The notes under the pieces were generated by a model. That model made no database searches. It was given only the letters and a program-made list of their open reading frames with translations, and was not told the origin of the DNA. From Tomocerus qinae (lineage: Eukaryota; Arthropoda; Collembola; Entomobryomorpha; Tomoceridae): a stretch of DNA of 64,000 nt. The position numbers and the translations under genes were made by a program. Of the stretch, positions 1-61,300 are shown piece by piece (position 1 is the stretch's first letter; the number at the start of each line of letters is the position of its first letter). The DNA lies in contig CM034546.1 in assembly GCA_020055645.1 (NCBI GenBank), positions 87,296,001-87,360,000 on the forward strand, given 5' to 3'.

Positions 1-321
1 AAATTTAAATGCCAGTAGAAGCGGAGTTAAATATTATACACTACCTATCTAACAATTTATAGGAAACGCAATTGAACTTTTAATGTCCATTTTATGCTAC
101 TTTTTTACTTTGACTATCAAAATGAAGTCAAAGTGAGCGCGCGACATCTCAGCAACCTATTGACCGATTTCAACCAAAATGAATAGGATTCGTCACCGGT
201 CTATAGGCATTGTTTTTGCCAAGTTTGGTCAATTTCCGTCTTTGACTTCAAAAGTTACAGTGTTGGCGTACGGACGGACGCACTGTGCGGTTCTATAAGC
301 TCGCTTCCTCAGGCGAGCTAA
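1..321 (+). mobile_element. Family M element, conserved right end (truncated by window edge)
   Basis: This is the conserved terminal block of the dominant repeat family. It runs through the phrase 'AGCGCGCGACATCTCAGCAA', a short GGAC/GGACGC run near 274-283, the phrase GTGCGGTTCTATAAGC, and a terminal hairpin (GCTCGC ... GCGAGC) that ends at GAGCTAA near 321. The same block recurs at 9181-9555, 25590-25910, 57530-57906 and 58130-58520, and inverted at 19305-19740, 43981-44400 and 56478-56800. The minisatellite core and other end, if present, lie outside the window. No coding potential is visible; the minus-strand open frame at 229-447 is a by-product of the repeat. Confidence 0.85.
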
Positions 322-6192: not shown

Positions 6193-6500
6193 TATTTGTT
6201 TGTGTGAACTTATCTAAGTAGTGTAGATAAGGACAATACTTTTAGTTGAGCTTTAAAATGCAGGGAAATTTTTAGTGACACATCTGGGATACATTTGAGC
6301 ATCTGCACTTGCTCACAGATGTATACAGATACCTTTGAGCACCTCTAGAGCACCCAGAGCAGCTGCTCAAATGTAGCCGGATACCTTTGAGAATCCCTAG
6401 AGCACCCCAGAACAGCCGACATGAAATCACCCGACGCCCAAAAATGAATACAAATAGCAAACTAAAATGCTTAGGATAATAAAAATAAGTTCAAAATTGC
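6193..6500. other. Short internally repetitive stretch, no gene
   Basis: Contains GATACCTTTGAG repeated at about 6328 and 6380, each followed by CTAGAGCACCC. No coding signal is seen. Confidence 0.4.
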
Positions 6501-7132
6501 AAAAATAAATAGTAAATTACGAAAATAAATAATAAATTACCAAAATAAATAATAAATTACAAAAATAAATAATAAATTACAAAAATAAATAATAAATTAC
6601 AAAAATAAATAATAAATTACAAAAATAAATAATAAATTACAAAAATAAATAATTAATTACAAAAATAAATAATTAATTACAAAAATAAATAATTAATTAC
6701 AAAAATAAATAATAAATTACAAAAATAAATAATAAATTACAAAAATAAATAATAAATTACAAAAATAAATAATAAATTACGAAAATAAATGATAAATTAG
6801 GAAAATAAATAATAAATTACGAAAATAAATGATAAATTAGGAAAATAAATAATAAATTACGAAAATAAATAATAAATTACGAAAATAAATAATAAATTAC
6901 GAAAATAAATAATAAATTACGAAAATAAATAATAAATTACGAAAATAAATAATAAATTACGAAAATAAATAATAAATGACGAAAATAAATAATAAATGAC
7001 GAAAATAAATAATAAATTACGAAAATAAATAATAAATTACGAAAATAAATAATAAATTACGAAAATAAATAATAAATTACGAAAATAAATAATAAATTAC
7101 GAAAATAAATAATAAATGACGAAAATAAATAA
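6501..7132 (+). repeat. 20-bp minisatellite, about 32 copies
   Basis: The unit is AAAAATAAATAATAAATTAC with an exact 20-bp period over most of its length. Variants alternate AAAAA and GAAAA starts, and blocks of the same variant sit together (for example GATAAATTAG at 6789 and 6829). It is the first of four successive minisatellites leading into a family M end at 9555. Confidence 0.95.
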
Positions 7133-7189
7133 TATCATCAATCAATCAATCAATTTATTCAGCTATAGTGTTTCTCGGAACATAGCCCA

Positions 7190-7445
7190 TAACACAGAAC
7201 GGTCAAAAATAACGGAATCATTTTCAGAAAATTCAAAATTACTAAAATATTTCAAAATTACCAAAATATATTCAAAATTACTAAAATATATTCAAAATTA
7301 CCAAAATATATTCAAAATTACAAAAAAACAATAAATTACCAAAATAAATTCAAAATTACCAAAATAAATACAACAATTACCAAAATAAATTCAAAATTAC
7401 AAAAAAAATTCAAAATTACAAAAAAAATTCAAAATTACCAAACTA
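7190..7445 (+). repeat. Degenerate minisatellite of TTCAAAATTACCAAAATA type
   Basis: Units of about 18-20 bp based on TCAAAATTACYAAAATATAT recur about 12 times with drift. They are related in sequence to the AATTAC of the preceding array and separated from it by about 60 bp that includes an ATCA run. The 72-codon ORF crossing it is a by-product. Confidence 0.75.
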
Positions 7446-7557
7446 AATTATTTGTGCAAATGGAATAAATTGAAATAATCTTTTTGGATTTTAAACCCTG
7501 TGAATATTTGTAATGGTCGTCCATAACAGATTGCCACAAACGATCATAAATCGTCGC

Positions 7558-8410
7558 AAATGATCACAGGTGGTTACAATTGATCACAGGTGATTACAAT
7601 TGATCACATGTGGTTACAATTGATCACAGGTGATTACAATTGATCACATGTGGTTACAATTGATCACAGGTGGTTACAATTGATCACAGGTGGTTACAAT
7701 TGATCACAGGTGGTTACAATTGATCACAGGTGATTACAATTGATCACATGTGGTTACAATTGATCACAGGTGATTACAATTGTTCACATGTGGTTACAAT
7801 TGATCACAGGTGATTACAATTGATCACATGTGGTTACAATTGATCACAGGTGGTTACAATTGATCACAGGTGGTTACAATTGATCACAGGTGGTTACAAT
7901 TGATCACAGGTGGTTACAATTGATCACAGGTGGTTACAATTGATCACAGGTGGTTACAATTGATCATAGATTGATCACAGGTGGTTACAATTGATCATAG
8001 ATTGATCACAGGTGGTTACAATTGATCACAGGTGGTTACAATTGATCACAGGTGGTTACAATTGATCACAGGTGGTTACAATTGATCACAGGTGGTTACA
8101 ATTGATCACAGGTGGTTACAATTGTTCACAGGTGGTTACAATTGATCACAGGTGGTTACAATTGATCACAGGTGGTTACAATTGTTCACAGGTGGTTAAA
8201 ATTGATCACAGGTGGTTACAATTGATAACAGGTGGTTACAAATTGATCATAGGTGGTTACAATTGATCACAGGTGGTTACAATGGATCACAGGTGGTTAC
8301 AATTGATCACAGGTGGTTACAATGGATCACAGGTGGTTACAATTGATCACAGGTGGTTACAATGGATCACAGGTGGTTACAATTGATCACAGGTGGATAC
8401 AATTGATAAC
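7558..8410 (+). repeat. 20-bp minisatellite, about 42 copies
   Basis: The unit is TTGATCACAGGTGGTTACAA with a 20-bp period. Variants are GATTACAA, CACATG and TTGTTCACAGG, and there are a few short insertions (ATAGATTGATCA at about 7966 and 8000). Each unit carries the palindrome TGATCA. The open frame at 8072-8266 is repeat translation. Confidence 0.95.
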
Positions 8411-8499
8411 AGGTGGTCCCTATTGATCACAAATCGTCATAATTGATCACAGATCGTCACACATAATCACGTATACTAGATTAATATAATTCATAATTC

Positions 8500-9180
8500 A
8501 ATATAAAAATCAGCAGAAAATATAAATTGATTAATGTTGACTATGAAAATCCACAGAAAAACAAAATTCATTAAAGTTGACTACGAAAATCAACCAAAAA
8601 TCAAAATTGATTAATGTTTACTATGAAAATGAACGAAAATCAAAATTGATTAATGTTTACTATGAAAATGAACGGAAATCAAAATTGATTAATGTTGACT
8701 ATGAAAATCAACAGATAATCAAATTTGAATAATGTTTACTATGAAAATTAACCGAAATCAAAATTTATTAATAATGAATATGAAAATCAACAGAAAAACA
8801 AAATTCATTAATGATGACTATGAAAATCAACAGAAAAACAAAATTCATTGAAGTTGACTACGAATATCAACCGAAAATCAAAATTGATTAATGTTGACTA
8901 TGAAAATCATCAGATAATCAAAATTGATTAATGTTTACTATGAAAATCAACCGAAATCAAAATTTATTAATAATGACTATGAAAATCAACAGAAAAACAA
9001 AATTCATTAATAATGACTATGAAAATCAATAGAAAAACAAAATTGATTAATAATGACTATGAAAATCAACAGAAAAACAAAATTCATTAAAGTTGACTAC
9101 GAATATCAACCGAAAATCAAAATTGATTAATGTTGACTATGAAAATCAACAGATAATCAAAATTGGTTAATAATGATTAT
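8500..9180 (+). repeat. Family M core: 40-bp minisatellite
   Basis: Units of about 40 bp contain TTGACTATGAAAATCAACAG followed by AAAATCAAAATTGATTAATG, with point variation (about 16 copies). The same core, in either orientation, sits inside every large family M copy in the window. Confidence 0.9.
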
Positions 9181-9555
9181 TTGAATCTAAAGTAAATCAA
9201 AAAATGGGAATTTTACTATAAAATTGAATAAAATTCCAAAATAGATTTTTTTCGTCTAATAGTTATTTTCCAGCTTAATTTGCTTTAATATAAAATCTCA
9301 AATTTGGTAGAAGCGGATTTAAATATTTTATACTACCCGCTATCAAAATGAAGACAAAGTGAGCGCGCCGTATCTCAGCAACCAATTGACCGATTTACCC
9401 CCAATTCAATAGGGATCAAGTGGTCCATAGGCATTGTTTTTGCCAAGTTTGGTCAATATCCGTCATTGCTTTCGAAAGTTATCGTGGGGACGGGCGGACG
9501 GACGTACGGACAGACTGTGCGGTTCTATAAGTTGCCTTATTCAGGCGAGCTAAAA
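9181..9555 (+). mobile_element. Family M conserved right end
   Basis: A block of about 375 bp follows directly on the 40-bp core. It includes AATTTGGTAGAAGCGGATTT, GAGCGCGCCGTATCTCAGCA, GGACGGACGTACGGACAGAC and the terminal TTCAGGCGAGCTAAAA. It is joined without a gap to the left-end motif of another copy at 9556 (head to tail). Confidence 0.88.
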
Positions 9556-9747
9556 CCTACACAGCAAGCCGTAACAGAAGCTTGCCTGAGTAAAGGGGGC
9601 AATTTTGGCTGAATGATAGTAGAAATAGATATATTTTGAATACTAAAATTTACAGTAACTCAAATTAGATCAATATTGATCATAATTGATTATCAAAATC
9701 AATAAATTTTAAAATAGGTTATATTTGACAATAAAATAAACAAAACC
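9556..9747 (+). mobile_element. Family M left end, solo copy
   Basis: It begins CCTACACAGCAAGCCGTAAC, continues AGAAGCTTGCCTGAGTAAAG, and runs through about 140 bp of leader (AGTAGAAATAGATATATTTT) before a new left end starts at about 9748. There is no tandem core and no right end, so it is a truncated or recombined copy in a head-to-tail series. Confidence 0.75.
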
Positions 9748-11896
9748 TACGGCAAGCCGTAACAGAAGCTCGCCTGAGTGAAGGGGACCGTGTACACAGT
9801 TTTAGTAGAATCATAGAAACAGGTTTATTTTCATATTTATTGGTTAATATTGAGTATCAAAATCAAAATGTATGAACCATCAAAGTCAATAGAAAATCAA
9901 AGCAGATTAACGTTGACTATGAAAATCAACAGAAAATAAAAAGAGATTAATTTTGACCATCAAAAGCAATAGAAAATCAAAACAGATTAATGTTGACTAA
10001 TTAATGTCGACTATGAAAATCAACAGAAAATCAAAACCAAAAAGATTGATGTTGAAAATCATCGGAAATTCAAAATAAATTAAGATTGACATTGTAAATC
10101 AACAGAAAATCAAAATAGATAATTGTTGACTATGAAAATCAACAGAAAATCAAAATAGATAATGGCTGACTATGAAAATCAACAGAAACTCAAACTAGAT
10201 TAAGATTGACAATGAAAACCAACAGAAACTCAAAATAGATTTAGATTTTTAATGAAAATCAACAGAAAATCAAAACAAAAAAGATTGATGTTGAAAATCA
10301 TCGGAAATTCAAAATAAATTAAGACTGACATTGTAAATCAACAGAAAATCAAAATAGTTAATTGTTGACTATGAAAATCAACACAACATCAAACTAGATA
10401 ATTGGTGACTATGAAAACAAACAGAGAATCAAAATAGATAATTGTTGACTATGAAAATCAACAGAAACTCAAACTAGATTAAGGTTGACAATGAAAACCA
10501 ACAGAAACTCAAAATAGATTAAGATTTTCAATGAAAATCAACAGAAAATCAAAATTTATTAATGTTTACTATGAAAATCAACAGAAAATCAATATTGATT
10601 AATGTTGGCTATCATAATGAAAAGCAATTCGAAAAATATAAATTTAACTATCTATTTGCATATAAATGCGAAATAGATTTATTGCCGTCCTATAATAGAT
10701 ATTTTCCGGTTTTATTTACTTTATTATAAAATCTTAAATTTGGTCGAAGCCGCATTTAATATTTTGTACTATCCCGCTAACAATTCATAGGAAGCACATT
10801 TGAACTTTTAATGTCCATTTAATGTCACATTTTTATTTTGACTATCAAAATGAAGACAAAGTGCGCGCACGTCATCTCAGCAACCTGTGGACCAATGTGA
10901 CCCATTTTCAATAGGCTTTGTCCTATGGTCATAGGCAATATTTTGGTGGTAGGTCAGTTTGGCAAAAGCCTTTTTTTTCAAACTGACCACTGTGGATAAT
11001 TTGGCAAAACGAGTCGGATAATTTGGCAAAAGTCGGTTTAAGTAATGTTTAAGACGCTGCAGGACATATAAGATATGTTTTATGCTGGGTTCAGTACTTA
11101 TTGATCCCGTCATCCCATGGGGACTATTTTCAAATCCAGGGGACAAGAAAATCGCTTCTCATTGGTGGATGAAATTTTTGTCCACGTTAGCCATGACCCT
11201 CACAGTGATATATTTTCTGTGGATTTGATTAAAGGAAGAGCAAAGCAGATGGCAAATAATAGCCCATTAAAGTGCACAGGAGACATATACGATGAGGTAA
11301 CACAAAAAGATAAATTTTATCAGCCATAGATTCCTAGTAAAGATGCAATGAAACGACTATTAAGACGTCACAAGAGACATTCATACTGTTTTCAAGATCC
11401 AAAAAGAAAATTAGACCTGGTCATTTCTTACAGTTTAGAGTTCACATTTAAACACACAAGATTTTTATAATTTGTTTCACAAGATCACAAAAAATATTAA
11501 TTTTTCCGACTAAAGAAAACATGTTTCAATTATCCAAATGTAAAACCTGGTTACTCGACGGGACTTATTAACGATATTCAAAAGATACTCATTACTTCTG
11601 CCTATTTGACTACGTGATCATGATTATTTGTAACTTGATAATGATAATGTTTGTTTTTATTGACCTACAAAGCTATGATAAATGTAACTTGAACAGGAAT
11701 AACACATTTTGCCAAATTATCCGACTTTTCAAAAAAAAATTTTGCCAAATTGACTTTTGCCAAAATGACCTAGAACCAATATTTTTGACAAGTTTCATCA
11801 AAATCGGTCAATGCGTTCGAAAGTTATCGTGGTAACAGACGAACGGACGGACGGACTGTGCGATTTTATAAGCTGCCTTATTCAGGCGAGCTAAAA
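9748..11896 (+). mobile_element. Family M, complete copy interrupted by a MULE remnant
   Basis: The left end is ACCTACGGCAAGCCGTAACA with the hairpin TACGGC/GCCGTA and then AGCTCGCCTGAG. A 40-bp core of about 18 units occupies 9890-10610, and the conserved right block 10620-10944 resumes at 11778 after the inserted element. The end is TTCAGGCGAGCTAAAA at about 11896. Removing the insertion leaves about 1.3 kb, comparable to the copies at 24826-25910 and 43981-45290. Confidence 0.85.
10945..11777. mobile_element. Degenerate Mutator-like (MULE) element, 833 bp, inserted in family M
   Basis: The termini share the inverted motif TAGGTCA(g/t)TTTGGCAAAAG and are flanked by the 8-bp duplication AATATTTT (10937-10944 and 11778-11785; a 9-bp reading with a leading C is also possible). 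The inside holds a plus-strand relic: 11117-11329 (HVSHDPHSDIFSVDLIKGRA), then, after a stop codon, IPSKDAMKRLLRRHKR at about 11332-11379. The second phrase resembles the region just before the MULE transposase domain in arthropod proteins. The DDE domain is missing, so it is dead. The duplicated bases match the interrupted family M sequence, which proves insertion order. Confidence 0.82.
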
Positions 11897-12037: not shown

Positions 12038-13430
12038 CTAATGGAATGTGCATGATGAGTATTCTTTCATTCGCAGAATATCTAATTTTGCTGAGATTTG
12101 ACGGACAGTTAGGCTACGAACATCAATATTCTTGATTTCATCTAAGATCCCCATTCTTTGAATGCAGCTCTCTTGTTGAAATGGAAGATCCTTTAATTCA
12201 GTGACATATTTGTTATTGAACCGTTGAAGAGTCAAAGATATATTGTAATTTTGTAAGGCCGCCTCCCGCGTAGCTTGAATTACACCCAATCCTTTATGTT
12301 TTGTGCTGGAGTACAAACAGTTATTTAGGAAGTCATGAGGAAGGCATAACATTTCCTTTATAGAACTTCTAATTATCTTATCAATATCTTCTAACAATGA
12401 TATTGAAAGTCTGCATAAGTTTGATGATTGAATTGTGTAGTTTGACCCGTTTTCAGAGTTGCGATGATGGTGAGATTTGAATCAATTGAGAATTCGGTAT
12501 CACTCAAATCTCCCTTTAAAATGTGTATTATCTTTGTTTTATCCACATTTAATGTAAGTCCTACTTTCTCAAATAAGTTTTTAGCTTCGGCGAATAATAC
12601 AATGACCGATGATTTAGAATTAGCCTATAAAACAGTGTCATCCATGAATCCTTATGTAGATAGTTGGCTTAGGACTTCATTAATTTTAAAACCAAACTTT
12701 GTGGATACTTCGACTTCTGATAGATTCTGAAGGATATTATCAATACTTAGATTAAATAGGAGTGAAGATAAGGGGGAGCCTTGAAAAATAACTCTTGTAA
12801 AAGAGATGGAATTGGATTTTCTTCCATTCACTTCCAGCCTTGTCTGATTATTAATAATCAAATTATTGAGTATTTGTCGCAAAAATGTAGGCAAAAACAG
12901 GGTTTCGAGTTGCCTTTTTAAGTGGAGATGTCCAACCATGTCATAAGCCTTAAGGATATCAAGAAAAAGAATTGAAAGATCTTTTCTCTTCGTTTTTGCC
13001 ATTTTCAGACATCCATCTAATATCACAGTGTTGACAAAAGTGCTTGGTGCATGAGGAGACCCAGATTGAAAAGGGCAAGTAGTATAGTAACGATTAACCA
13101 TAGATGTAATGATTCTTTCATACAATCTTCGTAAAGTGGACTTGATGCTAATGGGCCTCCAATTTTTTAGATCATCTTGGCATACATATCTTGGCTTTTA
13201 TATACCAAAACCGTTTGAGCTATTTTCTTCGAGTGAGAGATCACATTTTGATGAAGCATTATGGAGAAAATTGTTGCTAAAACATTTGGGCAAACTACTA
13301 CTTGTTCACTACAGTGTTCTGGTGTAAATAAAATCTACTCCAGGTAAGGAATCTGAATTCATTCCTTTTAAAGCATTTTCAACCTCTTCTTTAGTTATGA
13401 TTGATGAAAATTTAGAATCTAAATGCATTT
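12038..13430 (-). pseudogene. Non-LTR retrotransposon reverse transcriptase remnant
   Basis: Reading on the minus strand from about 13430, several frames together cover a LINE reverse transcriptase. They run from the N-terminal RT motif (ALKGMNSDSLPGVDF, near 13345) through NWRPISIKSTLRRLYERI (near 13150), FLDILKAYDMVGH (near 12950) and FQGSPLSSLLFNLSIDN (near 12760) to the catalytic box FMDD at 12637-12648. Then comes a post-RT segment 12038-12397 with IKEMLCLPHDF and KHKGLGV, recalling R2/NeSL-type elements. It is dead: in-frame stops lie directly before (12652-12654) and shortly after (12625-12627) the FMDD box, and frameshifts lie near 13130-13330. The 5' portion is cut off at a family M fragment at about 13431. 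The clade assignment is tentative. Confidence 0.85.
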
Positions 13431-13890
13431 GAGTTTTGGTTGATAGTTGATAGTCAACATTCGTATATTTTGATTGGTTGATTTTGCTAGTCAACATTAA
13501 TCTACATGGATTTCCTGTTTATGTTGATAGTCAACATTCGTCTATTTTGATTTTTGGTTGATTTTACTAGTCAACAATAACCTACATTGATTTCCTGTTT
13601 ATGTTGATAGTCAACATTGGTTGATTTTGATAGTTAACATTAACCTATTTTGATTTCCTGTTTATGTTGATAGTCAACATTGGTTGATTTTGATAGTCAA
13701 CATTGGTCTATTTTGATTTTTGGTTGATTTTGATAATAACATTAATCTATTTTGATTTCCTGTTTATGTTGATAGTCAACATTCGTTTATTTTGATTTTC
13801 TGGTGGTTTTATTTTGATTTGCGATCAATATTGATCTGACTTTTCTACTAGCATTCTACCAACAAAACGCACACGGTCCCCTTGGTCAAT
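13431..13890 (-). mobile_element. Family M fragment: core plus left end
   Basis: The inverted 40-bp core (TTGATAGTCAACATTNGT type, about 9 units with deletions) is followed by CTACTAGCATTCTACCAA and CGCACACGGTCCCCTTGG. It stops where the AGGCGAGCTT motif should begin. It adjoins the LINE remnant, whose 5' end is lost at this boundary. Confidence 0.75.
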
Positions 13891-18620: not shown

Positions 18621-18635
18621 AATGGGTAATTTTAT

Positions 18636-18832
18636 AATTTATTCAGAAATTCTATAATTTATTCGGAAATTTTATAATTTATTCAGAAATTCTATAATTT
18701 ATTCGGAAATTCTATAATTTATTCGGAAATTTTAAAATTTATTCAGAAATTCTATAATTTATTCGGAAATTCTATAATTTATTCGGAAATTCTATAATTT
18801 ATTCGGAAATTCTATAATTTATTCGGAAATGT
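18636..18832 (+). repeat. 20-bp minisatellite, about 10 copies
   Basis: The unit is ATAATTTATTCGGAAATTCT with exact 20-bp spacing and C/T and G/A variants. It lies immediately after the RT fragment. Confidence 0.92.
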
Positions 18833-19304: not shown

Positions 19305-19740
19305 AAGGAGCTTAGCTCGCCTGAGAAAGCGAGCTTATAGAATCGCACAGTCTGTCCGTCCGTCCGTCCGTCCGTGTACACGATAACTTTTGAAGACATT
19401 GATGGATTTCAACTAAACTTGGCAAAATCATTGCCTATGGACCTGTGACAAAGCCTATTGAAAATAGGCCACACTGGTCCATAGGTCGCTGAGATGCCGC
19501 GCGCTTACTTTGTCTTCATTTTGATAGTCAAAATGAAAATGTGGCATTAAATGGACATTAAAAGTTCAAATATGCTTCCTATGGATTGCTATCTAGATAG
19601 TACAAAATATTAAATGCCGCTTCGACCAAATTTAAGATTTTATAACAAAGTAAAAAAAACCGGAAAATACCTATTATATGACGGAAATAAATCTATTTCG
19701 CATTTATATGCAAATTGATAGTCAAAGCTATATATCCGGA
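19305..19740 (-). mobile_element. Family M conserved end, inverted and truncated
   Basis: It starts TTAGCTCGCCTGAGAAAGCG with the hairpin, then CGCACAGTCTGTCCGTCCGT, the GCCGCGCGCTTACTTTG block, and ends near ATGCAAATTGATAGTCAAAG. No minisatellite core or second end follows. Confidence 0.85.
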
Positions 19741-21450: not shown

Positions 21451-22309
21451 TAGGCTATAAATATCCGACAAATTGAAGGGACCTACCGGAGACCCGAAAG
21501 CCGTAGACCCGAAAACCGAATCCCCCAGACCCGAAAACCGATTTTCGCGCGGTTTTTTTTAATGGCGCGAAAATTTCGGTGCCGATTTCTCGGTCACAAA
21601 GCCACATTTTGAAAATGTGAGAGCCTTGGGTCTGAGTTCTAGATTCTAGATCCATACTAGCCTCCAACTTATCTCAACCTTTTAACTTTTAGCTGGAAGA
21701 AACCCGTGGTCATGGATACATCCACCGATCCCCTCGGTTTTATCCTATTCAAATTGGCTGCAGAGGGAAAGCAAAACAAAACTCATCCTGTTGGCATCAC
21801 CAAAAGTAGTAGGAGCCTATACATTCATGAACATTCTGCAGATTGTTGTTGGTATTGGCTCCCATTGTTAAACAGCTACACATCCCATTCAAAATTAGGA
21901 ACTTGGGTGTAAATATTTTGTTACTTTGAGTATTGCACTACTGTCGAGTGTTTGCATTTTGCATATCTCCGTATACAGTTAGCTTGTCGGTTGGTAGGGC
22001 TAAGGTTTCGGCTAACATTAAATGCATATTTTTGTTTGAATTTCGAAATATTTCAAACTTTCGAATTAATTCAGGAACAGCCCCCTTAACAGGGCGAGGA
22101 TGGGTAGTATACAGCCCTGTGTTGGCTTCAGAATACAATACTTCTGTTTATCATCAAAAAGTGGTTACTATAGGTGAAATACTTTTTTACTAGGACGTCA
22201 CTTAAACATTTCCATGGGCCCGAGCCGGACAATTCGTTTTAAATATAAACAATAGTCTGTTAGGCCGGGAAGTTCAGCCAAACTGGATATTGTACTTTAT
22301 ATTTTTCGA

Positions 22310-23490
22310 ATTGCTTTTCATTATGATAGTCAATATCAACCAATTTTGATTTACTTTTGATTTTGAAACTCAATATTAATCTTTGATTTTTTGTTTATTT
22401 TGATACTCAATATTAGTCAATTTTGATTTTTGTTTATTTTAATAATCAATATCAATCTATTTTGATTTTCTGTTGATTTTCACAGTCAATGTTAATCTAT
22501 GTTCATTTTCTGTTGATTTTAATAGTCAATATTAATCTATTTTGATTTTATATTGATTTTAATAGTCAACATTAATCTATTTTGATTTTATGCTGATTTT
22601 AATAGTCAATATTAATCTATTTTGATTTTCTGTTGAATTTCATAGTCAATATCAATCTATTTTGATTTTCTGTTGATTTTCACAGTCAATGTTAATCTAT
22701 GTTCATTTTCTGTTGATTTTAATAGTCAATATTAATCTATTTTGATTTTATATTGATTTTAATAGTCAACATTAATCTATTTTGATTTTATGCTGATTTT
22801 AATAGTCAATATTAATCTATTTTGATTTTCTGTTGATTTTAATAGTCAATATTAATCTATTTTGATTTTCTGTTGATTTTAATAGTCAATATTAATCTAT
22901 TTTGATTTTCTGTTGATTTTAATAGTCAATATTAATCTATTTTGATTTTCTGTTGATTTTAATAGTCAATATTAATCTATTTTGATTTTCTGTTGATTTT
23001 AATAGTCAATATTAATCTATTTTGATTTTCTGTTGATTTTAATAGTCAATATTAATCTATTTTGATTTACTGTTGATTTTAATAGTCAATATTAATCTAT
23101 TTTGATTTTCTGTTGATTTTAATAGTCAATATTAATCTATTTTGATTTTCTGTTGATTTTAATAGTCAATATTAATCTATTTTGATTTACTGTTGATTTT
23201 AATAGTCAATATTAATTTATTTTGATTTTCTGTTGATTTTAATAATCAATATTAATCTATTTTGATTTTCTGTTGATTTTAATAGTCAATATTAATCTAT
23301 TTTGATTTTCTGTTGATTTTAAAAGTCAATATTAATCTGTTTAAATCAAAATAGATTAATATTGAACTAATTTGAATAACAATTTACTAATCAAAATAAA
23401 TGTATTTTTATTATTGTTCCACTAAAAAATGTGTACACGGTCCCCTTTGATCAGGCGAGCTTCTGTTACGGCTTGCCGTAGGTTTTAAAG
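22310..23490 (-). mobile_element. Family M copy with a highly homogeneous 40-bp core
   Basis: In this orientation the core unit contains AATAGTCAATATTAATCTAT followed by TTTGATTTTCTGTTGATTTT. About 25 units at an exact 40-bp period span 22440-23340, and a 200-bp block is itself duplicated (22480 versus 22680). After the core come GTGTACACGGTCCCCTTTG, ATCAGGCGAGCTTCTGTTAC and GGCTTGCCGTAGGTTTT. The opposite conserved end is missing. Confidence 0.88.
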
Positions 23491-23549: not shown

Positions 23550-24112
23550 TATTGGTTAATATTGAGTACCAAAAACAAAATAGATAAAAGGTGACCACCA
23601 AAGTCAATAGAAAACCAAAATAGATTAACGTTGACTATGAAAATAATCAGAAAAGAAAAATAGATTAATTTTGAATTTCAAAATCAACAGGAAAACATAA
23701 TAGATTAATGTTCATTATAAAAATCAACAGAAAATCATAGAAAAATGTTCACTATCAAAATCAACAGAAACTCAAAATAGATTAATGCTCACTATCAAAG
23801 TCAATAAAAAATCAAAATAGATTAATGCTCACTTACAAAGTCAATAAAAAATCAAAATAGATTAACGTTGACAATGAAAATGAACAGAAAATAAAATAGA
23901 TTAATGTTGACTATGAAAATAAACAGAAAATAAAAATAGATTAATGTTGACTTTCAAAATCAACAGGAAACCATAATAAATTAATGTTCACTATGAAAAT
24001 CAACAGAAAATCAAATTGTTGACTATGAAAATCAACAGAAACTCAAAATAGATGAAGATGGACAGTGAACAGATTAAAATAGATTAATGTTAACCATCAA
24101 AATCAACAGAAT
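23550..24112 (+). repeat. Family M core fragment, plus orientation
   Basis: Starts with TTGGTTAATATTGAGTACCA (the leader also seen at 9842 and 24918) and has about 13 degenerate 40-bp units. Both ends of the element are absent. Its 5' edge faces the preceding copy's left end. Confidence 0.75.
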
Positions 24113-24224
24113 AACTAGCTGGTTAGCCCGTCCTACGACAGGGCTCTGTTTCACATAAAGCAAAATTAAAGATTCAAATATGACTAATCCCAAGCTCAAG
24201 TGCCCTGATATTTCATACCACAGT

Positions 24225-24825: not shown

Positions 24826-25910
24826 ACCTACGGCAAGCCGTAATAGAAGCTCGCCTGACTGAAGGGGACCGTGTACACAGTTTTAGAATAATAATAGAAA
24901 TAGGTTTATTTTCATATTTATTGGTTAATATTGAGTATCAAAATCAAAATGTTTGAATGTTGACCATCAAAGTCAATAGAAAATCAAAGCAGATGAACGT
25001 TGACTATGAAAATAAACAGAAAATAAAAATAGATTAATTTTGACTATCAAAAGCAATAGAAAATCAATATAGATTAATGTTGACTTTCAAAATCAACAGA
25101 AAATCAAAATAGACTTAGATTGATGTTGAAAATCAACAGAAATTCAAAATAAATTAAGATTGACATTGAAAATCAACAGAAAATCAAAATATATAATTGT
25201 TGACTATAAAATTCAACAGAAGATCAAAATAGATTAATGTTGACTATGAAAATCAACAGAAAATCAAAATAGATAATTGTAGACTATGAAAATCTACAGA
25301 AAATCAAGATTTGATTAGTGTTGATTATGAAAGTCAGCAGAAAAACAAAAGTGATTAATGTTGACTATGAAAATCAACAGAAAATCAAAAATGATTAATG
25401 TTGACTACGAAAAGCAACAGAAAATCAAAATTTATTAATGTTGACTATGAAAATCAACAGAAAATCAAAACTGATTAATGTTGGCTATCATAATGAAAAG
25501 CAATTCGAAAAATATAAATTTAACTATCTATTTGCATATAAATGCGAAATAGATATTTTCCGGTTTTATTTACTTTATTATAAAATCTTAAATTTGGTCC
25601 AAGCGGCATTTAATATTTTGTACTATCTTGCTAACAATTCATAGGAAGCACATTTGAACTTTTAATGTCCATTTAATGTCACATTTTCATTTTGACTATC
25701 AAAATGAAGACAAATTGCGCGCGCGGCATCTCAGCAGCCTATATACCAATGTGGCCCATTTTCAACAGGCTTTGTCACAGGGCCATAGGCAATGTTTTCG
25801 CCAAGTTTAGTTGAAATCTGTCAATGTCTTCAAAAGTTATCGTGTAAACGGACGGAAGGAGGGACGGACGGACTGTGCAATTCTATAAACTGCCTTATCA
25901 GGCGAGCAAA
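24826..25910 (+). mobile_element. Family M, complete copy
   Basis: The left end is AACCTACGGCAAGCCGTAAT, then AAGCTCGCCTGACTGAAG, the leader TTTCATATTTATTGGTTAAT and a 40-bp core of about 12 units (25000-25490). The conserved block follows (GCGCGCGGCATCTCAGCAGC), with GGACGGACGGACTGTGCAAT and the terminus ATCAGGCGAGCAAAA. A second left end begins at once at 25911, giving a head-to-tail junction. Confidence 0.88.
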
Positions 25911-26760
25911 AACTACAGCAAGCCGTAACAGAGGCTCGGCAGAGTAAAGGGGACCGTGTGCAGCGAAAATTTATGGTAGAAATTAATGATGTAGTATAAT
26001 TAAGTATCAAATTCAAAACGAAATCAAAATTGATTATTGTTGACCATCAAATTGAAAATAAGAATTTAACATTCAACAAGTACTAGAATTAATTTGAAAG
26101 TACTAGAATTAATTTGAAAGTACTAGAATTAATTTGAAAGTACTAGAATTAATTTGAAAGTAGTAGAATTAATTTGAAAGTACTAGAATTAATTTGAAAG
26201 TACTAGAATTAATTTGAAAGTACTAGAATTAATTTGAAAGTACTAGAATTAATTTGAAAGTACTAGAAATAATTTGAAAGTACTAGAATTAATTTGGAAG
26301 TGCTAGAATTAATTTGAAAGTACTAGAATTAATTTGGAAGTGCTAGAATTAATTTGAAAGTACTAGATTTAATTTGAAAGTACTAAAATTAATTTGAAAG
26401 TACTAGAATTAATTTGAAAGTACTAGAATTAATTTGAAAGTACTAGAATTAATTTGAAAGTACTAGAATTAATTTGAAAGTACTAGAATTAATTTGAAAG
26501 TACTAGAATTAATTTGAAAGTACTAGAATTAATTTGAAAGTACTAGAATTAATTTGAAAGTACTAGAATTAATTTGAAAGTACTAGAATTAATTTGAAAG
26601 TACTAGAATTAATTTGAAAGTACTAGAATTAATTTGAAAGTACTAGAATTAATTTGAAAGTACTAGAATTAATTTGAAAGTACTAGAATTAATTTGAAAG
26701 TACTAGAATTAATTTGAAAGTACTAGAATTAATTTGAAAGTACTAGAATTAATTTGACTT
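25911..26760 (+). mobile_element. Family M left end with a different core: 20-bp minisatellite, about 33 copies
   Basis: The left end is CTACAGCAAGCCGTAACAGA with AGTAAAGGGGACCGTGTG and a short leader. From 26081 to 26756 there are perfect 20-bp units TACTAGAATTAATTTGAAAG with very few variants. The right end is absent. The unit is unrelated to the 40-bp core, so the same element end can carry a different satellite. Confidence 0.85.
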
Positions 26761-39906: not shown

Positions 39907-41213
39907 ATAAAAGCGATTTGCTTCTACAAACGACATTTTCGTATAAATATGAGTTGCTTCGACAAGCTCGCACAAAAAACGACATTCCCGTATAAATGCG
40001 AGTTGCTTCGACAAGCTCGCACAAAAAACGACATTCCCGTATAAATGCGAGTTGCGTCGACAAGCTCGCACAAAAAACGACATTCCCGTATAAATGCGAG
40101 TTGCGTCGACAAGCTCGCACAAAAAACGACATTCCCGTATAAATGCGAGTTGCGTCGACAAACTCGCACAAAAAACGACATTCCCGTATAAATGCGAGTT
40201 GCGTCGACAAACTCGCACAAAAAACGACATTCCCGTATAAATGCGAGTTGCGTCGACAAACTCGCACAAAAAACGACATTCCCGTATAAATGCGAGTTGC
40301 GTCGACAAGCTCGCACAAAAAACGACATTCCCGTATAAATGCGAGTTGCGTCGACAAGCTCGCACAAAAAACGACATTCCCGTATAAATGCGAGTTGCGT
40401 CGACAAACTCGCACAAAAATCGACATTTTCGTATAAATGCGAATTACGTCGACAAACTCGCACAAAAATCGACATTTTCGTATAAATGCGAATTACGTCG
40501 ACAAACTCGCACAAAAAACGACATTTTCGTATAAATGCGAATTACGTCGACAAACTCGCACAAAAAACGACATTTTCGTATAAATGCGAATTACGTCGAC
40601 AAACTCGCACAAAAAACGACATTCCCGTATAAATGCGAGTTGCGTCGACAAACTCGCACAAAAAACGACATTCCCGTATAAATGCGAGTTGCGTCGACAA
40701 ACTCGCACAAAAAACGACATTTCCGTATAAATGCGAGTTGCGTCGACAAACTCGCACAAAAATGAAATTTTCGTATAAATGCGAGTTGCGTCGACAAACT
40801 CGCACAAAAATGAAATTTTCGTATAAATGCGAGTTGCGTCGACAAACTCGCACAAAAATGAAATTTTCGTATAAATGCGAGTTGCGTCGACAAACTCGCA
40901 CAAAAATCGACATTTTCGTATAAATGCGAGTTGCGTCGACAAACTCGCACAAAAATCGACATTTTCGTATAAATGCGAGTTGCGTCGACAAACTGGCACA
41001 TAAATCGAAATTTTCGTATAAATGCGAGTTGCGTCGACAAACTCGCACAAAAATCGACATTTTCGTATCAGGGCGAGTTGCTTCGACAAACTCGCACAAA
41101 AATCAACATTTTCGTATAAATGCGAATTACGTCGACAAACTCGCACAAAAAACGACATTCCCGTATAAATGCGAGTAGCGTCGACAAACTCGCACAGAAA
41201 ACGACATATTTTC
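39907..41213 (+). repeat. 49-bp satellite array, about 27 copies, hairpin-forming unit
   Basis: The period is exactly 49 bp. Each unit carries the inverted pair TGCGAGTT ... AACTCGCA around a GTCGAC site, followed by an A run and CGACATT(c/t)(c/t)CGTATAA. Variants are grouped: ATTCCCG at the left and again near 40620-40730 and 41158, ATTTTCG mostly at the right, AATGAAATTTTCG at 40770-40870. Because 49 is not a multiple of 3 and the unit lacks stop codons on one strand, all three minus frames stay open for up to 243 codons. None of these is a gene. Confidence 0.95.
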
Positions 41214-41395
41214 ATAGTCAACATTAATTAATTTTGATTGTCGTTGATTTTTATATTCAACGTTAATCAATTTTGATTTTCTCTTGATTATAATAATCGA
41301 TATTAATCAATTTTGATTGCCTGTTGATTTTAATACCAAAACCAAACTGCACAGTAACCACTGTTTAACCAAAATGTGCACACGGTCCCCATGTG
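41213..41395 (-). mobile_element. Family M core and left-end fragment
   Basis: Three or four degenerate 40-bp units (TTTTCATAGTCAACATTAAT) are followed by ACCAAAATGTGCACACGGTC and CCC. It is truncated before the AGGCGAGCTT motif and abuts the 49-bp array without a gap. Confidence 0.75.
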
Positions 41396-43980: not shown

Positions 43981-45290
43981 TTTTAGCTCGCCTGAGGAGC
44001 GAGCTTATAGAACCGCACAGTCTGTCCGTACGTCCGTCGCCACGATAACTTTCGAAAGCAATGACGGACATTGACCAAACTTGGCAAAAACAATTCCTAT
44101 GGACCACTGACGATCCCTATTGAATTGGGGGTAAATCGGTCCATTGGTTGCTGAGATACCGCGCGCTCACTTTGTCTTCATTTTGAAAGTCAAAGTGAAA
44201 ATTTGGCATTAAATGGACATTAAGTTCAATGGCGTTTCCTATAAATTGTTAGCTAGATGGTATAAAATATTTCTATCCGCTTCTACCAAATTTGAGATTT
44301 TATAATAAAGCAAATTAAACCGGAAAATAACTATTATACGATGGAAAAAATCCATTTTGGATCTAAATTCAATTTTATAGTCAAATTTCCATTTTCTGAT
44401 TTCCTTTAAATTTTGATAATCATTATTAACCGATTTTAATTTTCTGTAGATTTTAATACTCATAATCAATGATTGAATATCTGTTGATTTTCAAAGTCAA
44501 CATTAATCAATTTTAATTTTCTGTAGATTTTAATACTCATAAACTCATAATCAATGATTGAATATCTGTTGATTTTCATAGTCAACATTAATCAATTTTG
44601 ATTTCTGTTGATTTTAATAGTCAACATTAATCACATTTGATTTTCTGTTGATTTTCATAGTCAACATTAATCAATTTTGGTTTCTGTTGATTTTAATAGT
44701 CAACATTAATCAATTTTGATTTTCTGTTGATTTTCATAGTCAACATTAATCAATTTGGATTTTCTGTTGATTTTTATAGTCAATATTAATGTAATTTGAT
44801 TTTCTGTTGATTTTTACAGTCAACATTAATGTACTTTGATTTTCTGTTGATTTTTATGGTCAACATTAATGTACTTTGATTTATGTTGATTTTTATAGTC
44901 AACATTAATGTACTTTGATTTTTGGTTGATTTTGATTATCAACATTAATCAATTTTGATTTTCGGTTGATTTTCATTGTCAACATTAATCAATTTTGATT
45001 TTCGATTGATTTTCGTGGTCAACAGTCATCAATTTTGATTTTCGATTGATTTTCGTGGTCAACAGTCATCAATTTTGATTTTATATTGATATTTCAAATG
45101 ATATAGCTTCGTTTCCTTATAATATCAATGTCTGAATGTCGTAGATACATATATAAAGACTCAATTCTGAAAGTTTGATCAAAATCCGTACGCTCGGTTT
45201 TGTGTAACGTGCGAGTACTTTTCGCTACCAAAATGTGTACACTGTAAACTTTACTCAGGCGAGCTTCTGTTACGGCTTGCTGTAGGTTTT
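43981..45290 (-). mobile_element. Family M, complete copy, inverted
   Basis: The right end is TTTTAGCTCGCCTGAGGAGC with hairpin, then CGCACAGTCTGTCCGTACGT and the CCGCGCGCTCACTTTGTCTT block to about 44400. The 40-bp core, 44440-45090, has about 16 units drifting from TTTGATTTCTGTTGATTTT forms to TTTTCGATTGATTTTCG forms. The left end follows: GTGTACACTGTAAACTTTAC, TCAGGCGAGCTTCTGTTACG and GCTTGCTGTAGGTTTTT. No exact target duplication is seen. Confidence 0.9.
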
Positions 45291-55337: not shown

Positions 55338-58300
55338 ATGAGTTCTCGGACAGTTGTGTCTGTAGAGTCCGATCCTAAAAACCCGGAATTTCAGCCTTTA
55401 ACTATAAACATGGACGCTAAACATTTTAAGAAGAAGGCCAAAAAGTCTCGAAGGATGTGTTCAAACTCAAAGAGCATTTGTTCCAGAGGCCACCGCTGTT
55501 CCCAACAATGCATTGTTAAGTACCCTTTGCATCATGCAGCTCGTCTAGGGAAATTTGAAGATTTAAAACGAATTCTGGATAACCCCAAATGTACACATTC
55601 ACCCAAAGAGAGGGATGAATGCCATGGAAGAACAGGTCATTTGGCATTTACACTTTAACACTTGCATTAAGCCTATATGTATGTGGTATATCCATATCAG
55701 GTCATAGGTTATTGGACGAGAATTGCCTTAACAAAGGTACGTTGTCTACGATGGGTGTACTTTTTTCACTCAAGGTAACTGAAAAGGTTGCCCATCGCAC
55801 CTCCAAGTACGTGTAAAGCGTGCTGAAGCAAGGGCAAGTACAGCCGAAGATAGCCCCGCCCACTACACTGACTGAATGTCTGAATCAGTTTTGTTCTTTC
55901 CATAAAATCTATTATATATAAACTAGGCGGTCACAGGACCCAGGTCCTGTAGTACATGGGGCTAGTGCATCTACAAACAATTTGGCAAGAATTATGGTTT
56001 CTAGTAGGCTAATTACACCGGCATTTATTTGGGTTCATCACTAATATAATGTATCGGTCACAGGACCCAAGTCCTGTTATAAATAAAGCTAGTGTGTATT
56101 CCGGGGCAATATTGTACGATGGGTAGAATGTATTTCAGATACATAGATTTTCATGTTAATTCCAATTGACCTTTTCATACTTTCTCATTAGGTGGGCCAG
56201 GGCCAGAGGTACAGATTTTACGTTACATTGATAGAGTCAAAAAATATTCCAAAACTTTGCCTTATTACGGCCTAGGGTCAACCTTTTGTTCAGAAAGAGA
56301 ATTTGGCAATTGGCAAATTACTCCGGTTATCCACCACATTTTTGACTCGGATACTTTTAATCACCTTAATACATACTGCCATCACTGGACAATAGACCAT
56401 TTTAAGGCCGAGATAGCCTTAATTAGCAATGTAGCGTCAAGCGATGAATTAGAAAATTGAGTGTTTTTTATTGTAATTTTAGCTCATCGCCTGAGGAAGC
56501 AAGCTTATAGAACCGCACAGTCTGTGCGTACGTCCGTCCTTCTGTCCCCAAGATAACTTTCGAATGATATGACGGATATTGACCAAACTTGGCAAAAAAA
56601 TGCCTATGGACCACTGGCAACCTCTATTGATTTTGGGGTAAAACGTTCGGTAAACTGGTTGCTGAGATACCGCGCGCTCACTTTGTTTCATTTTGATAGT
56701 CAAAGTAGAAAATGGGTATTAAAAAGTTCAATTGCGTTTCCTAAAAATTGTTTGCGGACCAAACTTAAGATTTATTTTGATATATTTTCAAATATAACTA
56801 TGTAACTTTTACTTATTTTAAAACTTTTTTATTTTGATAGTCAATTATGATCAATATTGATCTAATTTGAATTACTGTAGATTTTAGTAATCAAATCAAA
56901 ATAGACCTATTTCTACTATCATTCTACCAAAAATGTGCACATGGTCACCTTTACTCAGGCGAGCTTCTGTTACGGCTTGCTGTAGGTTTTGTTCTCCACT
57001 CCTGTACTCAAAAAGGAGTAAAATTTGAACGTGAGTAGCGTCCACTCCTTTTTGGCAACACTCCATACTCATTTCCAAGCACGTACGTGCTTGGACGTGT
57101 CCAGTGGGGGAGGGGGTGCAGCGCCCATCTCAAAGTAACGTTACCTTATACCCCAAGTTAAAAATGTGACCCTCGTGGATGCTGAATATAAAAATCGACC
57201 AAAAAGCAACATTGATTATTGTTGACTATGAAAATCAACCGAAAGTCAAAATTGATTAATTTTGAATATGAAAATCAACAGAAAATCAAAATTGATTGAT
57301 TTTGAATATGAAAATCAACAGAAAATCAAAATTGATTAATGTTGAATATGAAAAACAACATAAAATCAAAATTGATTATTGTTGACTATGAAAATCAACA
57401 TAAAATCAAAATTGATTAATGTTGACTATAAAAATCAACAGATATTCAATCTTGATTGATTATGAGTATTAAAATCTACAGAAAATTAAAATCGGTTAAT
57501 AATGATTTTCAAAATTTAAAGGAAATTTTTTTCCATCGTCTAATAGTTATTTTCCCGTTTAATTTGCTTTATTATAAAATCTTAAATTTGGTAGAAGCGG
57601 ATTGAAATATTTTATACTATCACGCTAACAATTTATAGGAAACGCCATTCAAGTTTTTAATGTCCATTTAATGCCAAATTTTCATTTTGACTATCAAAAT
57701 GAAGACAAAGTGAGCGCGCGGTATCTCAGCAACCAATGGACCGATTTACCCCCAATTCAATAGGGATCGTCAGTGTTCCATAAGCATTGTTTTTGCCAAG
57801 TTTGGTCAATATCTGTCATTGCTTTCGAAAGTTATCGTGGGGACGTACGGACGGACGTACGGACTGACTGTGCGGTTCTATAAGCTGCCTTATTCAGGCG
57901 AGCTAAAATTGATTAATGTTGAGTATAAAATCAAGTCAAAATCAAAATTGATTAATTTTGACTATGAAAATCAACAGAAAATAAAAATTGATTAATACTG
58001 AGTATCAAAGTCGAAAGAAAATCAAAATTGACTAATGTTGACTATGAAAATCTATGGAGAATCAAAATCGGTAAATAATAATTACCAAAATCAATAGAAA
58101 TTGGAAAAATACAAGTTTGACTATAAAATTTAATATAAATCCAAAATAGATTTATTTCCGTTTTCTAATAGTGATTTTTTGGTTTTATTTGCTTTATTAT
58201 AAAATTTCAAATTTGGTAGAAGCAGATTGAAATATTTTATATCATGCTAACAATTTATAGGAAACGGCTTTGAACTTTTTAATGTCCATTTAATGCTAAA

Positions 58301-61300
58301 TTTTCACTTTGACTATCAAAATAAAGACAAAGTGAGCGCGCGGTTTCTCAGCAACGACCACCGATTTACCCCAAATTCAATAGGGATCGTCAGTGGACCA
58401 TAGGCATTGTTTTTGCCAAGTTTGGTCAATATCATTCTTTGCTTTCGAAAGTTGTCGTGGGGACGGACGGACGGACAGACTGTGCGGTTCTATAAGCTCG
58501 CTTCCTAAGGCGAGCTAAAAAGCAAAGCCATTCCACATCCAACGACAAAAATTTTGTCAACGCGATTTGGTGCGGAAATGCGGAATCCCTCCTAAATCTT
58601 GATTTCTGTAGTTAGGACAAGGAACAAGAGGAAGACCAGCTTAGGCTTCTATACGTCTCCCAAGTATTTCTCTCATCAGAGCTCCCAGAGCTCCTTGCTG
58701 TGTGCTACAAGTTCGCAGCCGTTTTGCTATTGGTCGGTCGCAGCCGCTCTCTCATTGGCTCTCGTATGTACCTACGTGTATTCTAAGTGTGGACCATTTC
58801 TCTTATGGAAGCTGGCCTTCTATAGTGAAGCGCCAGCTTCACAGCCACCCCAGCTTCACTGCCACCATCGCGATGGTGGCTGTGAAGCTGGCGCTGATGC
58901 ATCGGTATTCTATGAGTTAGGACAAAATACATGGGGATAAGTAGGATGCTTCTTTTCTTATGGACTGCTTCCCGATGGTATGTACGGCCAGCAGGCGCAG
59001 GCGTGATACCAATCGGGCCACCTGATAAAGTTATTATAGAGTGATGTTGATATTCGCATTTCAGCTCTGCATTATGCGGCAGCAACGGGAAATGTTGAGA
59101 AAGGACTGATGTGCGTGAAGGTGCTGTTGCAATCTGATGAATTAATGAAGAGCAAGGATGCAGCAGAGCAAATCGAAGAGTTGGTGAACACATTAGATTC
59201 CAAGGGGGAAACCGCTTTGCATTTGGCAGCTAAAAATGAAGCGACACACATCGTCATTGAATTGCTCATCAATCAAGCAGACGTAGACATCAGGTAAATA
59301 CTATCATCTTCGCTTGTGCACAGTGCACGGGATCTCCGGAATTTGTTATAGCATGACTAAATATACCTATAGATTGAGAGATACGAGATACCTGATTGGT
59401 AAGATCGGTATATATTGATGGGGTGGATTCGCAAACATTGACATCCTGACAATGAGATTAATTGGATATAAGGTGTAACGGTCAAGTCATGCTCGGTGTA
59501 CATTTTATCTATTTTAATCATCGGCAGCTCTTCATGCATAGTAATCGGTTGATTTAATTAACAACTATATTCCGCTAATTGATTCAAATCTGTCAACCTT
59601 CAGAGAATGCATTTGTTAATGTTAATACCTTTAGTTACTTTTAAATAGACACCATAATAGCAACGTATCGTAATCGAAATACAAAAAATAGACGAGGATA
59701 ATATTAATTTATTTGTCAAATGGGAACTATTTTGTGCAATACCAAATACTTTGACTTGTAACAACCACCAATATCAATATTATAAATAATTATTGTCTTA
59801 ATGTATAATATACATACAGTGACATTATACACAAATATACCAAAATTCATGCAGTATTAGTAAGACAGTGTGTGTGTAGTAAGGTTGGCTCACTTGGGTG
59901 TTTGGGAAAATAAAATTCAATTTTTTGTCTATACTCAAAGCTATGACCCACCAAGACATACGTATCCAATGGCAACCATCCTTGGTCATTGAAAGACAGA
60001 TTTGGCTGTGGATCCAAATTGTCCAATTTGGATCCACGAATGAAAAAACTGAATTTTCATTTTCCAAACACCCAAGTGAGCCAACCTAATACACAATCAC
60101 TATGACTACAGCCAATGTTGCAACTATACATTACCTATCCTATATAATGTACAGTCGCTTAATTTTTGATCAGATCTGCGGATGGAAAAATCCCATTAAG
60201 TCTAATCTACAAAAAGACGCCGAATGCCATGGACGAAGTGCTCAATCAGAGTATTTCATACGTTGAGAATTGTGATTGCGAGGACACGGATTCCAGTGAC
60301 CATAATATATACGACTTTACAAAAGCTTGTGTAAATGTCTGCCTTGATTTTGGGTGAGTAAGCGAAGATAATCCTCATTGCTTCCATGCATTCTCCTCTC
60401 AAACCAAACCAACTTTAATATGAGAATGTGTATTACATCGTGCCGGCATAATTACCCAAGCTGCAAAACGTGTTGGGAGGAGCTTGGCCCAAAGCCGGAC
60501 AAAAGTGTTGGCCCAGTGTCAACTTTGTTCGCCGGGACTGCGCTGGCCCAGAAGTGCAGGTCCGTTCTATGCGCCATGAAGGGCCAATGTAATTTCTATT
60601 TGCCCCCCGACAGTATCCCAACTCATTGCCGACTCTAATATTCACAAAAGCAAAAAAAATTGCACCAGCCCGTACCCACCATATCAACCTTCCATTTACT
60701 TATTCTAGCACCCTACCACCTCTCCATCAATCTTTCATTGATTGGTTTTGCAATTAACTAGCTTATCAATGATAATAAGCTGGGAAAATATGGGGCCCAT
60801 AGAGGGCCCATTATTACGGCGCAATGCAAGTTGGTCTCAGTAGGCCCATACAGGCGTTGCTGCGAAGGTCCAATACACGGCTGCCGCCATGGGCCCTGTA
60901 TTGGGATGCGATTATCGGCCCTATGCATTGCTGGCCTCATCGGCCCTTTGCTGGGTAATCGGCTTAATTGTATCGGGGTCATCCTCAACGATTTCCCTTT
61001 GTATCCCCAACATACTGAAAATTTAGCCCTCGTTGGCCCAACATAGTTTGCAGCTTGGGATACTGTACATGTTATACATATACATATCTGGTATAGCTGT
61101 ACATACGTATATATGTGCATGAATTATATAAATTAGGAGATAGTGAGAGTAAAATTATTCTTTTGTTGTAGTCCTGTGATAGGCTATGACGATATGTCGA
61201 CCGGAAGTGCAAACAGCGCAATAGAAGACTCCCCAGTCCTGAGAAAATATCCGCTGCGTCAAGAGACAAATTTCCTATATCAAGTTAACAGGAAGCGGAT

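Follow-up and report, generated by a model that had tools for sequence, protein, structure and literature searches.

A family of non-coding elements with a 40-bp tandem core was characterised in a 64,000-nt stretch of the genome of the collembolan Tomocerus qinae (GCA_020055645.1, contig CM034546.1, positions 87,296,001 to 87,360,000; hereafter the window) and at further places in the same genome. These elements are very probably HINEs, a repeated family of non-coding derivatives of Helentrons. An array of the same 40-bp repeat precedes the Rep gene of a Helentron in this genome, and a long array of it also occurs on its own. The high confidence applies to the identity of the elements only; the origin of their core is rated apart and is put forward tentatively. 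The repeat may have passed, within one genome, from an autonomous Helentron, where it formed part of the 5' leader, to the variable core of the HINEs and from there to a satellite of at least 8.6 kb, a reading that could well turn out wrong.

Identification of the family

The family is represented by a complete element at positions 9746-11892 (Table 1). Read in its own direction, it starts at TTTT/AGCTCGCCTGAATAAGGCAGCTTATAA.. (slashes mark element borders), followed by a GTCC-type microsatellite, a 5' module and 18 units of 40 bp. Behind the core lies an inner 3' module with a GGTCCCC block, and the element ends in TCAGGCGAGCT TCTGT TACGGCTTGCCGTA GG/TTTT. Its 5' module is split by an insertion that is probably a TIR/MITE-like repeat (terminal inverted repeat/miniature inverted-repeat transposable element), whose borders were taken from the gaps between the 5' pieces 10782-10945 and 11633-11892 and between the matches 8475-10944 and 11782-11892. 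The 3' end of a neighbouring copy (CCTACACAGCAAGCCGTAACAGAAGCTTGCCTGA) has its terminal C at position 9556. None of the four complete elements of the window overlaps a stop-to-stop frame of at least 150 aa.

Searching the window by blastn, with queries that included window ends, revealed nine 5' and seven 3' ends. A preliminary description, made from the letters of the window, had counted about 14 copies with a common right end; this number was not recovered, while the family itself is real. The features described for the two ends were found as well, in reversed orientation: what had been called the right end is the 5' terminus of a minus-strand element, and the left end is its 3' terminus. 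The 5' pieces found by blastn number ten, two of them being halves of one interrupted element. Three of the four complete elements pass the end pattern; the fourth, 56481-56986, fails it because of a 3-nt insertion in its 5' subterminal inverted repeat (subTIR) and was identified by reading its sequence.

A first search of the genome gave 30 loci, two of which (L001 and L014) lie in the window. From these loci and the window, 27 full elements of 559-2147 nt were extracted by end patterns tolerating 3 and 6 mismatches, so that part of the likeness of their ends follows from the search itself. Not every element is independent: loci L003, L004, L028 and L029 represent one element pair and its inverted duplicate. 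Two genome searches yielded 66 and 43 matches, with 40 of 2,375 and 40 of 2,207 first-look candidates scored.

When 24 elements from outside the window were used as queries, they covered 10,163 of its 64,000 nt (about 16%) and 0 nt of the reversed window. Family sequence amounted to 9,180 nt in a sample of 20 evenly spaced 10-kb pieces (200 kb), a weak basis for a density estimate; 8,573 nt of this belong to a single array (locus L036, see below), and small pieces were present in L033, L040 and L050. No HINE end was found in the 200 kb sampled, against 16 in the window, so that the sample does not bear out an abundant family. The window is thus locally rich in comparison with this sample, but its designation as the product mainly of these elements is too strong at a coverage of about 16%.

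Termini and target sites

The ends of the 27 elements read TTTT/AGCTCGCCTGA...TACGGCTTGCTGTAGG/TTTT. Inverted subTIRs are present near both ends (AGCTCGCCTGA and TCAGGCGAGCT), the motif being terminal at the 5' end and located 21 nt inside at the 3' end. With at most two mismatches, AGCTCGCCTGA occurs 17 times in the window (11 exact), compared with a mean of 5.15 and a maximum of 9 in 20 mononucleotide shuffles. The inverted repeat that follows the 5' subTIR pairs in two forms, ..CTGAATAAGGCAGCT and ..CTGAGGAAGCGAGCT, and both fold better than their shuffles as single-stranded DNA (z -3.0 and -3.5, one sequence each). A GTCC-type microsatellite is located at element positions ~37-76 in 21 of the 27 elements. 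At the other end, the palindrome TACGGC TT GC(T/C)GTA is conserved in 33 ends, for which the search pattern itself contained the palindrome.

Thymine occupies the four positions preceding the 5' end in 84-98% of 52 distinct ends and those following the 3' end in 85-100% of 33 distinct ends, figures biased upward because the search patterns contained TTTT. Beyond four positions the share of T falls to about 40%, followed by unrelated DNA. The A/T runs noted earlier at the ends can thus be given more exactly as about four T on either side, in element orientation. Exact flank repeats of 5 nt or more occur in 2 of the 27 elements, against a mean of 3.2 and a maximum of 7 with shuffled partners, and no consistent target duplication outside T was seen in this set.

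For four of the 27 elements, inserted in repeats with empty neighbouring copies, filled and empty sites could be compared by eye. In L021 (31-bp array), the empty site CCCA-T5-ACACATA corresponds to CCCA-T5/element/T3-ACACATA, a gain of 3 nt. The minus-strand element of L008 lies in GT-A4/element/A4-TTGACG where the empty site is GATGT-A5-TTGACG, again a gain of 3. The gain is about 5 nt in L030 (18-bp array) and about 5 nt for the plus-strand element of L008, the least certain of the four sites.

Two results on the ends speak against the assignment to HINEs. Folding of the 3' end is close to that of shuffled sequences (z -0.4 for the common form and -1.5 for the other), which leaves the proposed end hairpins borne out at the 5' end and weakly supported at the 3' end. 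All four filled sites gained 3-5 nt, T-rich, where a strict model without duplication predicts none; the absence of target duplications described earlier can thus be upheld for sequence outside the T run only. The gain is explained if the T belong to the element, and a duplication of T cannot be distinguished from this in homopolymers. In Helentrons and HINEs the T runs are counted as part of the element and their number sometimes varies (PMC4067079, in excerpt).

The same T flanks might suggest a family of TIR (DDE) transposons or MITEs with TTTT target duplications, since about four T flank each end, 11-bp motifs near the termini are inverted relative to each other, and filled and empty sites differ by 3-5 nt. 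The position of the inverted motif 21 nt inside at the 3' end, the asymmetry of the hairpins, a frequency of flank matches (at least 5 nt) that does not exceed chance, the tail-to-head joins described below and the precedent for variable T runs as part of the element all argue otherwise and make this reading highly improbable. It was rejected for want of terminal inverted repeats and of a duplication other than T, in a genome that was not searched for DDE genes. Canonical Helitrons start with TC, end in CTRR and insert between A and T. Here the elements begin with AG and finish with GG, flanked by T runs and with a subTIR near either end, and a canonical Helitron, rejected for lack of 5' TC and 3' CTRR ends, is the least probable reading of all, even with PF14214 matches of about 200 bits in the genome that perhaps belong to the canonical class.

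Joins and composite elements

At five places one element directly follows another, tail to head, with a few T at the junction (3-7, determined by script or by eye): window positions 9552 (locus L001) and 25909, and loci L003, L016 and L027. The L003 site recurs as copies in L004, L028 and L029. In L030, a spacer of 57 nt separates tail and head. Two kinds of double-headed composites, in which a second 5' end lies right behind a truncated 5' module, were also identified (L005/L016 and L013/L015). At L013 and L015 the composite is bordered on the outside by unrelated sequences, which indicates that it probably transposed as one piece; in the other pair, the outer end of the L016 copy lies beyond the locus. 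Double-headed composites may also have arisen from two independent insertions at the same T run. Helitron arrays with several 5' ends and a single 3' end have been attributed to rolling-circle amplification in plants (PMC12628747, in excerpt). By analogy, the joins and composites fit rolling-circle behaviour, as support and not as proof.

The HINEs would be mobilised in trans by a Helentron-type Rep/helicase. Transposition is predicted to start at the 5' hairpin (TTTT/AGCTCGCCTGA), a single strand being copied as far as the 3' subTIR and palindrome (..TACGGCTTGCTGTAGG), where termination would occur, and the copied strand would insert at oligo-T.

Several HINEs lie head to head, with their 5' ends facing across gaps of ~15-383 bp: L008, L009 and L010 (copies of one pair), L017 and L024, and the pairs C2:668223/668537, C2:63243548/63243760 and C2:50686947/50687164, of which the last has a second copy without the first 100 nt (C1, C2 and so on denote contigs).

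The tandem core and a free satellite array

The array is present in 26 of the 27 elements, and the orientation of its units relative to the ends is constant (consensuses by TRF). Unit number ranges from none (L027) to about 21 (L019, in two adjacent rows). Within the window, cores comprise between about one unit and 25.5 units (22326-23342), which refines the earlier range of 1 to over 25. L009 and L010 match L008 at 97.8% over 2 kb and contain at least 30 units, compared with 14-15 in L008; unit number therefore differs between near-identical copies. The core would be a spacer of variable length whose unit number changes through slippage or unequal exchange.

A role in seeding satellites is attributed to HINEs that have tandem cores. 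At C1:80000001-80008573 (L036), 7.3 Mb from the window on the same chromosome, at least 214 units of the HINE core were found over 8.57 kb (91% matches). A satellite-scale array of the HINE unit therefore exists, and L036 is an expanded or satellite form of the core. There is no HINE end at its visible right edge, the other edge lying outside the locus. Its consensus differs at 2 of 40 positions from the 25.5-unit array at 22326 in the window and at 5 of 40 from the element consensus, distances that are neutral on whether the unit was captured or escaped.

A Helentron-type Rep gene and its leader

The genome contained 96 matches to the PF14214 profile, some of them pieces of one gene, and none was found in 14 control genomes. 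Many scores lie at 150-218 bits; a second group lies at ~57-99 bits. The group at ~200 bits, with frames of up to 1903 aa and located mostly on the largest contig (C1 and others), possibly represents canonical Helitrons. The only Rep gene that was read (L051, second group) contains FFYRIEFQHRGSPHMH; motif 2 here has the form described for Helentrons in the excerpted PMC4067079, an S standing between G and P and F/Y..R preceding the motif. Its listed frame comprises 2,197 aa with no stop inside the match (Pfam Helitron_like_N, E 7e-28). Together with the HINE features of the elements, these Rep genes, one with a Helentron motif, bear out the earlier proposal of a Helentron-like non-autonomous family.

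The leader of this gene (L052, L053) contains 5.6 and 2.9 units of the 40-bp repeat, and degenerate core-like units continue to within ~15-40 nt of the first ATG. A module of 193 bp is present twice, including a piece like positions ~196-318 of the HINE 5' module (~65%, E 5e-7). When a 735-nt part of the leader was compared with the elements, the best match reached 62.5 bits, while 200 dinucleotide shuffles gave at most 39.7.

The leader recurs at two further places. At C2:66297915 it is 100% identical and lies 1.8 kb before a Rep match (C2:66300394), and a 400-bp array piece is found at C2:66297475 (100%) in the same order. At C7:946657 it is 94% identical, with an array piece at C7:947380 (91%), also in the same order. 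A weaker core-like match (76%) is present at C5:13351619, ~2.1 kb before the Rep match C5:13353785. Behind the leader the C7 and C2 copies differ, with 1,659 and 1,785 nt from leader to Rep and frames of 2,197 and 913 aa. The difference of 126 nt between these two Helentrons with identical leaders (C7:869756 and C2:66300394) is a multiple of a 42-nt (14-codon) repeat seen near the frame start in L052, and the number of these repeats may differ between them.

In three HINEs (Table 1), matched by eye, a piece like L053 starts ~450-490 nt after the 5' end, at about the start of the core. From this distance, the 5' terminus of the Helentron was predicted ~450-490 nt beyond the stretch read. Loci L012 and L020, with 5' ends that have no core units behind them, showed nothing Helentron-like in their coding frames by eye, without a Pfam scan.

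Origin of the core

Since a Helentron has the same array in front of its Rep gene, the core may descend from the Helentron 5' leader and not from captured host DNA, and its units could subsequently grow into free satellite arrays. Several results weigh against this descent. The 1,135-nt leader holds no 5'-type subTIR with two mismatches or fewer, the 5' end of the Helentron is unplaced, and its termini lie outside the stretch read. The 5' terminus predicted at C7:~872945 was wrong, as an array was found there instead. The piece of 5' module in the leader is only ~65% like that of the HINEs, and the first leader unit, which matches the first core unit best in 3 of the 27 elements (4-5 mismatches against 8-9 elsewhere), does not discriminate in the other 24. 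None of the 96 PF14214 matches lies near the third copy (C7:~947 kb). The identical leader copies may be haplotigs, a segmental duplication or the result of a recent jump, and the independent copies may therefore be two. The L051 Helentron may also be a cousin, or sit beside or inside a HINE array. For the autonomous partner with the same ends that the preliminary description called for, this Helentron is a candidate that has the core array and, weakly, part of the 5' module in common with the HINEs, its termini lying beyond the stretch read.

The array before the Rep gene could instead be flanking DNA, the Helentron having jumped into the T-rich core of a HINE, in which case the core is not derived from a leader. 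This is a serious competitor, if a somewhat doubtful one. Nesting has a precedent at window position 57905, where a HINE 5' end lies inside a HINE core, and the leader without a subTIR and the unplaced 5' end are as this reading expects. It accounts less well for the degenerate core-like units lower in the leader, close to the first ATG, and for the array-leader order at C2:66.297 Mb (100%) and C7:947 kb (91-94%), which a duplicated nested site could also produce. According to a filler model, the satellite came first and was picked up by a HINE as captured host DNA. The existence of the free array of at least 214 units is in line with this, and capture is discussed in PMC7492417 (in excerpt), while the finding of core units in front of a Rep gene, within its leader, argues against it; this model is unlikely.

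Other features of the window

Table 1. Features of the HINE family in the window, and HINEs elsewhere in the genome that contain a leader-like piece
Position	Strand	Feature	Remarks
1..319	-	HINE 5' module	cut by window edge
8475..9551	-	HINE, 5' module and core	core 8502-9171 (16.9 units); no 3' end found
9556..9741	-	3'-end fragment of another copy	tail-to-head join (TTTT) with element 8475-9551; seen as L001
9746..11892	-	complete HINE	5' end 11892 (AGCTCGCCTGAATAAGGCAGCT hairpin); 3' end 9746 (palindrome TACGGCTTGCCGTA, then GG/TTTT)
9882..10612	-	40-bp minisatellite core	18.0 units
~10946..11781		unrelated insertion splitting 5' module	inverted arms 20/20 (100%); borders approximate
13416..13883	+	decayed copy	core and inner 3' module
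19314..19733	+	5' module	second hairpin type (..GAAAGCGAGCT)
22286..23482	+	HINE core and 3' end	25.5 units (22326-23342); no neighbouring 5' end
23551..24117	-	core fragment	11.2 units
24827..25908	-	complete HINE	core 24940-25488 (13.7 units)
25913..26073	-	3' end of another copy	tail-to-head join via T
41206..41390	+	core fragment and inner 3' module
43985..45286	+	complete HINE	core 44410-45096 (17.2 units)
56481..56986	+	complete short HINE	~1 core unit; 3-nt insertion in 5' subTIR
57176..57904	-	HINE 5' module and core	5' end abuts core of next copy at unit TTTT (nested)
57905..58516	-	core (4.1 units) and 5' module	copy interrupted by HINE 57176..57904
C3:49639634/49640085		HINE with L053-like piece	5' end/piece
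C1:87816254/87816744		HINE with L053-like piece	5' end/piece
C1:13315142/13315614		HINE with L053-like piece	5' end/piece

An unrelated 20-bp array starts at 26078, directly behind the HINE 3' end at 25913-26073. Minisatellites of 20 bp, half the length of the HINE unit, were observed at 6494-8454, 18628-18830, 26078-26757 and 51739-52588. A 49-bp array of 26.2 units (39928-41207) abuts the HINE core fragment at 41206. At 53440-53900 and 54313-54543 a second HINE-like family is present, reading TTAAGTGGTGTGCAACACCGCTTTATAGG.. on the minus strand followed by a GTCC/GTCT microsatellite. Arrays of an 18-bp type lie near it, and a similar array hosts the HINE insertion of L030.

An open frame of 920 aa at 30765-33527 showed similarity to Mutator-like transposases (E 1.8e-74) and YqaJ (E 1.5e-18), and a reverse transcriptase fragment was located at 12652-13197 (RVT_1, E 1.9e-17). 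The window gave no Rfam match at gathering scores and no ARAGORN match (bacterial code). Positions 9300-9850 had no blastn match among phages, and a scan of viral contigs for a 26-base 5'-end pattern gave no matches.

Comparison with known systems

The kind of element is already known from DINE-1/HINE and from Cg_HINE of the oyster Crassostrea gigas; the comparisons below draw on excerpts of the sources cited. Like DINE-1 and HINEs (PMC4067079), the elements are non-coding, carry subTIRs and a 3' palindrome, insert at T-rich targets with a variable number of terminal T and have tandem repeats, which those families show in some copies, in a genome with Helentron Rep motif 2. An inverted repeat beside the 5' subTIR is shared with DINE-1. 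They differ in the 5' subTIR, which here lies directly at the T run, and in the 3' subTIR, at 21 nt from the 3' terminus compared with ~38-60 nt in mite HINEs. The partner described there is more than 95% identical; here the partner is a candidate only.

The order of subTIR, inverted repeat, GTCC microsatellite, array, subTIR and palindrome is that of Cg_HINE (PMC7492417), as are the one-way array, the insertion at oligo-T and the relation to satellites. The unit is 40 bp in T. qinae and 138-181 bp in the oyster, in a study that filtered for 100-500 bp, and many elements have more units here. In the oyster, no relation to Cg_HINEs could be established for any of ten autonomous elements, and the origin of the HINE repeats and the mobilising Helentron were left open in that study (PMC7492417). 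In T. qinae, by contrast, the array stands before a Rep gene, a point that goes beyond what the excerpted DINE-1/HINE and Cg_HINE literature describes; no report of such a leader array was found in the literature searched, mostly titles and abstract openings. This one genome offers clean copies, joins, composites, internal empty sites, a candidate partner with the same array and a free array of the same unit. Together these allow the questions of repeat origin and partner to be tested directly. If the passage from leader to HINE to satellite is true, it would decide between captured filler and an origin within the element for this HINE family, and it would name a Helentron partner, a step beyond the reach of the oyster study.

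Short arrays between conserved ends are also found in Pearl, MgE and DTC84 of bivalves, likened here by their description in PMC7492417; Pearl units measure ~160 bp compared with 40 bp here. In a different host, 154TR of Drosophila (PMC12628747) combines an array inside an element with long heterochromatic arrays, and DINE-TR1 of Drosophila, cited there by its title, likewise has an array inside the element. The sharing of one repeat by HINE core, Rep leader and free array in T. qinae suggests one way in which such satellites may start.

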